IMG/VR virus record: IMGVR_UViG_3300021181_000012
Location: 1 to 61,321 of that record
Source of the DNA: a virus
Reading direction: 5' to 3' (one strand)
Length of the DNA: 61,321 nucleotides
Part shown: piece after piece, positions 23,079-23,644 of the stretch
Position numbering within the stretch: the stretch's first letter is position 1
Layout of the letters: each line of letters starts with the position of its first letter
The notes under the pieces: generated by a model
The model's database searches: none
What the model saw: only the letters and a program-made list of their open reading frames with translations
What the model was told of the DNA's origin: nothing
Translations under genes and position numbers: made by a program

Positions 23079-23219
23079 GCGAGGGCCGAAGAGAATTGGT
23101 TATCCTCCACCTAAGCCGTACCGGGGGAGTAGCTCAATGGTAGAGCGCCGGACCTGATCAATCCGGAGGTTGCTGGTTCAAGTCCAGTCTCCATACCGAT
23201 TCTCGTACCTTGTCTTCGC
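23079..23219 (+). ncRNA. Y RNA 3 with tRNA-like module in normal order
   Basis: Lower stem GCGAGGGC (23079-23086) with GUCUUCGC (23212-23219) and GGCCGA element. The upper stem GAGAAUUGG (23091-23099) pairs with CCGAUUCUC (23196-23204), nine pairs. GGUUAUC follows. The 90-nt insert holds a near-complete tRNA-like fold (23123-23192) in normal arm order with a shortened acceptor stem. It is the longest-range tRNA mimic of the set that keeps D, anticodon and T arms in order. Confidence 0.9.
23123..23192 (+). other. tRNA-like module of Y RNA 3 (not a functional tRNA)
   Basis: D-arm GCUC (23132-23135)/GAGC (23143-23146), anticodon-like stem CCGGA/UCCGG (23148-23152/23162-23166) with a nine-base loop CCUGAUCAA, T-arm GCUGG-UUCAAGU-CCAGU (23172-23188). 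The acceptor keeps only GGAG/CUCC and has no CCA. The loop size and broken acceptor argue against decoding. Confidence 0.85.
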
Positions 23220-23228
23220 TTCATTTCT

Positions 23229-23293
23229 GCGAGGGTCGAAGTCGGTCTGTTATCACAATGCAAACAGAGACGGACCGCGTAACTTATCTTCGC
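23229..23293 (+). ncRNA. Y RNA 4 (short form, compensatory change)
   Basis: Lower stem GCGAGGGU with AUCUUCGC (ending 23293). Compared with copies 3 and 5, the C-G pair next to the bulge has become U-A, a clear compensatory change (GGGUCGA and CUUAUC). The upper stem CGGUCUG (23243-23249) pairs with CGGACCG (23271-23277), and GUUAUC is present. At 65 nt it is the shortest copy. It lacks a tRNA-like part. It shares the flank CUUCGCUUCAU with copy 3, a sign of tandem duplication. Confidence 0.87.
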
Positions 23294-23313
23294 TTCATGT
23301 TTCACTTGTAAGT

Positions 23314-23450
23314 GCGAGGGCCGAAGCTAGCTGGTTATCTTGGAACTCTATGTCGTTGGTTCGATTCCAACCGTCCTGGTTCTCCAGGCGTAGTTCAGTG
23401 GTAGAACAAGAGTGGCGAAAGCCATTTCCGGCTACATCACTTGTCTTCGC
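23314..23450 (+). ncRNA. Y RNA 5 with circularly permuted tRNA-like module
   Basis: Lower stem GCGAGGGC (from 23314) with GUCUUCGC (to 23450), and the GGCCGA/CUUG element. The upper stem UAGCUGG (23328-23334) pairs with CCGGCUA (23428-23434). GGUUAUC follows. The insert has a T-arm first, then a closed acceptor-like hairpin, then a D-arm. A small hairpin CACUU/AAGUG precedes the copy (23303-23314). Confidence 0.9.
23355..23407 (+). other. permuted tRNA-like module of Y RNA 5
   Basis: T-arm GUUGG-UUCGAUU-CCAAC (23355-23371). Acceptor-like hairpin CGUCCUGG (23372-23379), loop UUCU, CCAGGCG (23384-23390), paired with one bulged U. Then UA and D-arm GUUC/GAAC (23393-23396/23404-23407). The natural 5' and 3' tRNA ends are joined by the loop, and the chain opens on the anticodon side. 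Confidence 0.85.
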
Positions 23451-23459
23451 ATGAAATCC

Positions 23460-23491
23460 CTGGCCGGGTACTATCTGAGGCATCCGGCCAG
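23460..23491 (+). other. hairpin between Y RNAs 5 and 6
   Basis: CUGGCCGG (23460-23467) and CCGGCCAG (23484-23491) form a perfect 8-bp G/C-rich stem with a 16-nt loop. It has no U run. It could be a processing site or a spacer hairpin. Confidence 0.6.
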
Positions 23492-23499
23492 TAAAACAG

Positions 23500-23644
23500 A
23501 AAGAGAGCGGGCCGAAAGCTGGTTGGTTATCTACTGCTAATAGAGAGGTCGCGGGTTCGAGTCCCGCTGGCACCTTCGGGTGCTATAGCTCAGTTGGCTA
23601 GAGCGCTAAAACACCGATTGGCATAGAACTTGTCCGCTCTCTTT
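23500..23644 (+). ncRNA. Y RNA 6 with circularly permuted tRNA-like module
   Basis: The lower stem is the longest: AAAGAGAGCGGGC pairs with GUCCGCUCUCUUU (to 23644), 13 pairs of different sequence from copies 3-5, with the same bulged GGCCGA/CUUG element. The upper stem GCUGGUUGG (23518-23526) pairs with CCGAUUGGC (23614-23622), and GGUUAUC follows. The 3' end passes into a U-rich tract. The insert is the best permuted tRNA mimic. Confidence 0.92.
23551..23604 (+). other. permuted tRNA-like module of Y RNA 6 with UUCG-capped acceptor
   Basis: T-arm GCGGG-UUCGAGU-CCCGC (23551-23567). UGGCACC (23568-23574) pairs with GGUGCUA (23579-23585), seven pairs, closed by UUCG (23575-23578). Then UA and D-arm GCUC/GAGC (23588-23591/23601-23604) with a GG-containing loop. 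All T-loop and D-loop landmarks of a tRNA are present. Confidence 0.9.

Follow-up and report, generated by a model that had tools for sequence, protein, structure and literature searches.

Putative circularly permuted forms of a single closed tRNA in the Y RNA array of a phage Ro60 locus

The 61,321-nt stretch of viral DNA analysed here (hereafter the window) carries a phage Ro60/Y RNA locus, and we consider it probable that three of its Y RNAs (Y3, Y5 and Y6) contain circular permutations of one closed tRNA, which derive from tandem tRNA genes and present the tRNA elbow on Ro60. As read from the sequence, all three modules fit a single tRNA circle whose acceptor strands are joined by a loop, the 3' strand running through this short loop into the 5' strand. 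The Y stem would enter the circle between the T arm and the acceptor in Y3, in the anticodon loop in Y5, and between the D arm and the anticodon arm in Y6. The preliminary description of this DNA, which saw two opposite tRNA-mimic topologies, was too simple in this respect, as the array holds three opening points that all fit one circle with a closed acceptor.

The Ro60 gene and the Y RNA array

The window comes from an IMG/VR virus record, and the host of the virus is a bacterium. A gene on the + strand (21062-22654) encodes a Ro60/Rsr protein of 530 aa, in which the Pfam domains TROVE (1.4e-43) and vWA_Ro60 (3.8e-63) were detected; its nearest solved relative is the Rsr of D. radiodurans (2NVO, 1.5e-135). 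Directly 3' of this gene, six Y RNAs lie in tandem at 22920-23646 on the same strand, each with a terminal stem bearing a bulged C and with the conserved flanks GA and CUU. A strict Y-stem scan (helix of at least 7 bp, bulged C, 3' CUU) over both strands of the whole 61-kb window gave seven matches on the + strand, all within the array (the six Y RNAs and one Y4xY5 cross-pairing), and one match on the opposite strand.

Y RNAs 1 (22920-22989) and 2 (22999-23070) are simple elements without tRNA arms, and Y RNA 4 (23229-23293) is likewise simple; all three were recovered by the strict scan, with fold z values of -3.85, -3.62 and -3.58, respectively. The remaining members carry tRNA modules: Y RNA 3 (23079-23219) in the order D arm, anticodon arm and T arm (D-AC-T), Y RNA 5 (23312-23452) as a permuted module opened at the anticodon loop, which is the YrlA form, and Y RNA 6 (23498-23646) as a permuted complete tRNA opened between the D and anticodon arms. 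At the gathering threshold, the tRNA of Y3 was the sole Rfam match in the window. ARAGORN also called a tRNA-Ser(GGA) at 11425-11524, which has no Rfam support at the gathering threshold and is probably false. Promoter and terminator scans returned nothing above chance, the terminator scan covering loops of 3-8 nt, a range into which the long stem of Y6 does not fall. At 23631-23650 the long lower stem of Y6 runs into TTTTTATTTT, a terminator-like U run, so Y6 may double as the terminator of the array.

The tRNA modules of Y3, Y5 and Y6

Y5 and Y6 share the arm order of YrlA (T arm, capped acceptor stem, D arm), which Y3 does not. Y5 carries on the + strand a T arm (23355-23371), an acceptor stem with a UUCU loop (23372-23390) and a D arm (23391-23407), followed by a GGC-GAAA-GCC hairpin (23414-23423); its anticodon stem, AGAGU/ACUCU, closes in the exact tRNA geometry. 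Y6, on the same strand, carries an anticodon arm, UCUA-CUGCUAA-UAGA (23530-23544), a T arm (23551-23567), a 7-bp acceptor stem with a UUCG loop (23568-23585) and a D arm (23586-23604). When Y6 was rotated back, ARAGORN folded a full tRNA-Ser(GCU) with the 7-bp acceptor and every arm present. These two elements are also the best sub-threshold matches to the Rfam YrlA model (35.4 bits for Y5 and 41.2 for Y6, against 17.7 for Y3 and a gathering cut of 69). In the MFE folds of both, the Y stem, the T arm and the acceptor hairpin form and the D arm does not. The T arm, capped acceptor stem and D arm lie where the preliminary description had placed them, and the corresponding stems covary in relatives (see below). 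Its further claim that the Y stem joins at the anticodon side holds for Y5, in which the Y stem closes the anticodon stem, but not for Y6, where this closure is absent and the module keeps an anticodon arm of its own. In Y RNAs of the Y6 class, the D arm is repeatedly followed by a linker resembling GCUAAAACCC (23605-23615 in the window), which may pair with GGUUA.

The Y3 module (23123-23192, +) consists of an acceptor 5' strand, a D arm, an anticodon arm (GAU), a T arm and CUCC. The Rfam tRNA model scored its three arms (23126-23192) at 46.9 bits (E 7e-7 over the whole window, with a gathering cut of 29), ARAGORN reported a tRNA-Ile(GAT) at 23123-23197, and the MFE fold includes the Y stem together with the D, anticodon and T arms. 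The arms therefore stand in tRNA order, as had been described, but the picture of a normal-order tRNA fails at the acceptor. Directly after GGUU, on the 5' side of the module, we found AUCCUCC followed by ACC (23102-23111, +), corresponding to the acceptor 3' strand and most of the tRNA 3' end. This AUCCUCC pairs at six of seven positions with the acceptor 5' strand GGGGGAG, and in the MFE fold it forms a 6-bp hairpin with GGGGGA (23123-23128). Y3 is therefore not simply a normal tRNA, and we propose with moderate confidence that it is opened at the junction of T arm and acceptor, its tRNA-like 3' end being displaced to the 5' side. The opening point is not certain because a 4-bp downstream acceptor, GGAG/CUCC, competes with the upstream hairpin. 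A functional tRNA gene would have linear order, a 7-bp acceptor, free ends and CCA; the downstream acceptor of Y3 has only 4 bp and no CCA there, and the acceptor loops of Y5 and Y6 are closed.

Alternatively, Y3 could be a whole tRNA-Ile in normal order, joined to the Y stem at its acceptor end and captured recently, so that it would be of another kind than Y5 and Y6 with their YrlA form; this corresponds to the view of the preliminary description. We regard this reading as possible, though the less probable one: the linear order seen by both ARAGORN and Rfam, the downstream acceptor pairing and an identity of 82.9% to a phage tRNA-Ile over 69 nt speak for it, whereas the upstream strand and its use in the MFE fold do not. 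The D-AC-T relatives also count against it. The only others with a partial downstream acceptor, L006 2348-2500 and L084 1928-2069, are laid out as Y3 is and have an upstream acceptor 3' strand with ACCA in the same place (CGCAA-ACCA and UCCUC-ACCA, respectively), and L049 and L119 have acceptor hairpins of 6-8 bp at the corresponding place, 5' of the D arm. The elements at L049 4822 and L119 7009 had been candidates for a plain normal order, and were reassigned on account of this hairpin to those opened at the T/acceptor junction. No diverged orthologue of Y3 was found among the fetched loci, the copy in L002 being identical.

Relatives and possible action of the modules

Relatives were collected with Ro60 queries in four scans over viral contigs and a fifth over genome contigs, which yielded about 330 loci, some of them overlapping; Ro60 is widespread in phages (343 phage records). 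A scored Y RNA scan of 328 loci at a threshold of 48 gave 487 matches on the Ro60 strand versus 4 on the opposite strand. Removal of exact duplicates left 257 unique Y RNAs beside Ro60 genes on viral and bacterial contigs, among which L002 belongs to the very virus of the window and several further loci come close to being duplicates; a looser redundancy filter kept 252 of 267 Y RNAs. The permuted T-acceptor-D form accounts for about 42 of the 257, the D-AC-T order for six (one of which, in L198, is doubtful) and opening in the D loop for two (L115 4680 and L119 7158), and none of them was seen to be opened at the T loop. Letter shuffles of the same inserts gave an expectation of at most 0.1 per class, and this and the other shuffle expectations below serve as guides rather than formal tests, since these loci had also served to write and tune the detectors. 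The T-acceptor-D, D-AC-T and D-loop-opened forms occur together in the L119 array, from an Anaerolineae MAG. Two elements counted as normal order, in L133 and at L198 7389, look spurious when read.

The permuted modules behave as rotated tRNAs. After rotation at the acceptor loop and trimming at the Y side, ARAGORN called a tRNA in 38 of 42 permuted Y RNAs, and made no call in the 42 unrotated sequences or in shuffled ones. For 32 modules, RNAalifold predicted the T, acceptor and D stems with compensatory changes in 13 of 15 pairs; in these stems 142 cells changed on both sides against 40.8 in shuffles, and the covariation score was 0.83 for the named structure versus at most 0.17 when it was slid, although the modules were chosen because they pair, so the class comparison with shuffles is the fairer test. 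A 5-bp anticodon stem in the exact 27-31/39-43 geometry, flanking the D and T arms, is present in 12 of 43 permuted modules including Y5 (0.54 expected), and 14 of 43, including Y6, have a hairpin with a 7-nt anticodon-type loop that follows the GGUUA motif and precedes the T arm (2.2 expected); the modules with strong stem closure and those with the hairpin do not overlap. Even Y RNAs that lack T or D arms can have an anticodon-type 7-nt loop (CUNNNAA) after GGUUA; over all classes such loops were counted in 34 of 252 (about 1 expected).

The permutations, with their stems and arms, and the CCA fossils treated below are seen in the sequence itself and in its relatives, whereas Ro60 binding, partners and purpose are proposals that draw on earlier studies of D. 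radiodurans and Salmonella (PMC8394870, PMC7790460). Each lower stem is of the kind that binds Ro60, and in Y3, Y5 and Y6 the tRNA module would replace a simple loop. With Ro60 on the stem, the module would present the tRNA elbow, and in Y6 also the anticodon arm, to tRNA-binding proteins of the host or the phage such as modification enzymes, PNPase or tRNA nucleases, and such partners may be tethered or occupied by the Ro60-bound modules. Charging would be prevented by the closed acceptor and the buried ends. By inference, the Ro60 RNPs of this phage would show tRNA elbows in different orientations, sometimes with an anticodon arm. In the published work on YrlA, the stem of that RNA tethers Rsr, while the tRNA-like domain is a binding site for PNPase and a target of modification by DusA and TruB (PMC8394870).

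Two other purposes deserve mention, to each of which we assign roughly a one-in-four standing. The modules may be decoys, whose Ro60-bound anticodon arms and elbows absorb or inhibit host anti-phage nucleases that cut tRNAs. The anticodon arms kept in the modules have several identities (Ser GCU, Thr UGU, Pro UGG and Ser UGA), as such decoys might, and Wolin and colleagues proposed that YrlA inhibits an anticodon nuclease competitively (PMC7790460). An anticodon arm is lacking, however, in Y5 and in many relatives, and some anticodon arms carry GNRA loops. It is equally conceivable that the modules do no more than lend the Y RNA stability or act as a gate on the Ro60 ring, the tRNA being a ready-made stable fold without a tRNA-specific partner. 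The free variation in opening point would suit such a purpose, as would the fact that Y RNAs without T or D arms (169 of 257, simple and unclassified) outnumber those with tRNA modules. On the other hand, the elbow letters TTCRA, GG and U8 are conserved across very diverged copies, albeit our detector also selects for them, and YrlA is itself a substrate of tRNA-modifying enzymes, as cited above. We regard presentation of the elbow on Ro60 as the likely action of the modules, which may work by tethering or as decoys.

Origin from tRNA genes and comparison with known systems

The acceptor loops of relatives retain traces of a tRNA 3' end. An N-CCA loop whose CCA begins 8 nt beyond the T arm, as at positions 74-76 of a tRNA, is present in 7 of 44 permuted modules (0.6 expected), a count reached in none of 2000 shuffles. 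These CCA fossils belong to relatives; Y5 and Y6 have none, and Y3 has ACC. Contiguous acceptor pairing measured 7 or 8 bp, the commonest length, in 23 of 44 permuted modules, and tRNA genes adjoin or intersperse the Y genes in several relative loci. Since the CCA occupies its exact tRNA position, it points to an origin in tandem tRNA genes, and the likely simplest source of the modules would be tandem tRNA genes that encode their CCA and were cut in different phases. A stretch of about one period would have been captured between the halves of a Y stem, and capture at variable phase would account for the varied opening points, the 7-8 bp acceptor stems and the CCA fossils together. The identities of Y3 (0.80) and Y6 (0.79) to some real tRNA exceed that between the two (0.68, where random tRNA pairs average 0.55), which weakly favours, without proving, the separate captures suggested in the preliminary description; two different targets, the alternative named there, may also apply.

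A bolder extension, which we hold to be rather improbable, is that phages repeatedly permute tandem tRNA genes at almost any junction into Ro60-bound RNAs, and that copies with an NCCA loop are cut there, as permuted tmRNA is, giving a tRNA-like molecule in two pieces that is attached to Ro60 and whose acceptor end would be free or could even be charged. As for chance, a junction of two ordinary tandem tRNA genes also reads as T-acceptor-CCA-acceptor-D, but accidental matches or such junctions hardly come into question, because the Y stems enclose single modules, neither the unrotated nor the shuffled sequences gave a tRNA, and the matches are strongly biased to the Ro60 strand.

Several neighbouring elements were noted in the survey. 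Annotated tRNA-Thr genes overlap permuted Y RNAs of the Y6 type in Xanthomonas phage 10KY502B (L330 2978-3113), where the next ORF, annotated as hypothetical, carries TROVE and vWA domains, and in Mycobacterium phage prophiGD43A-5 (L331 2492-2620). Mycobacterium phage Sparky, which can be grown on M. smegmatis, has a Y RNA of the Y6 type (near 28870-29010) beside its Ro gene. L006 3306-3374 is a tRNA-like element (43 bits) between Y RNA genes; its acceptor seems to reach 12 bp, and a Y stem is not visible. In L004, a permuted tmRNA (7475-7699; RF04321, 71 bits) lies downstream of the Y array in the same virus.

If our reading is correct, the tandem tRNA genes and CCA fossils constitute concrete evidence for the source of the tRNA mimics in bacterial Y RNAs, with a tRNA core that is conserved while its attachment point moves. 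The modules would form a natural set of permuted tRNAs for asking which face of the tRNA the Ro60 RNP needs, and some phage 'tRNA' annotations would really be Y RNAs. That YrlA is circularly permuted with respect to tRNA has been published on the basis of the crystal structure 6CU1 (PMC11472068), and Ro proteins of phages and Y RNAs of mycobacteriophages have likewise been described (PMC12282133; PMC7824862). A literature search that fell short of the main Y RNA papers found no published mention of multiple opening points, of Y RNAs that keep anticodon arms or of CCA fossils.

The likeness to YrlA (RF02553; Salmonella 6CU1) pointed out in the preliminary description holds: both systems have the Y stem, the permuted order of T arm, capped acceptor-like stem and D arm, and an adjacent Ro60 gene, and Y5 also has the YrlA type of anticodon-stem closure. 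They differ in that Y6 and its relatives are opened between the D and anticodon arms and keep the anticodon arm, that Y3 has the D-AC-T order, and that Y3, Y5 and Y6 score only 18-41 bits, under the 69-bit cut. Known bacterial and mycobacteriophage loci likewise place Y RNAs adjacent to a Ro60 gene, whereas the present virus has six Y RNA genes in one array and opens the tRNA module at three different points. Permuted tRNA genes of Cyanidioschyzon and archaea, as well as permuted tmRNA, resemble the phage modules in that the 3' part precedes the 5' part and the acceptor strands are joined via a short loop. Those RNAs are processed back to open acceptor ends, whereas the phage modules sit on a Y stem and, given this stem and their frequent tetraloops, look built to stay closed.
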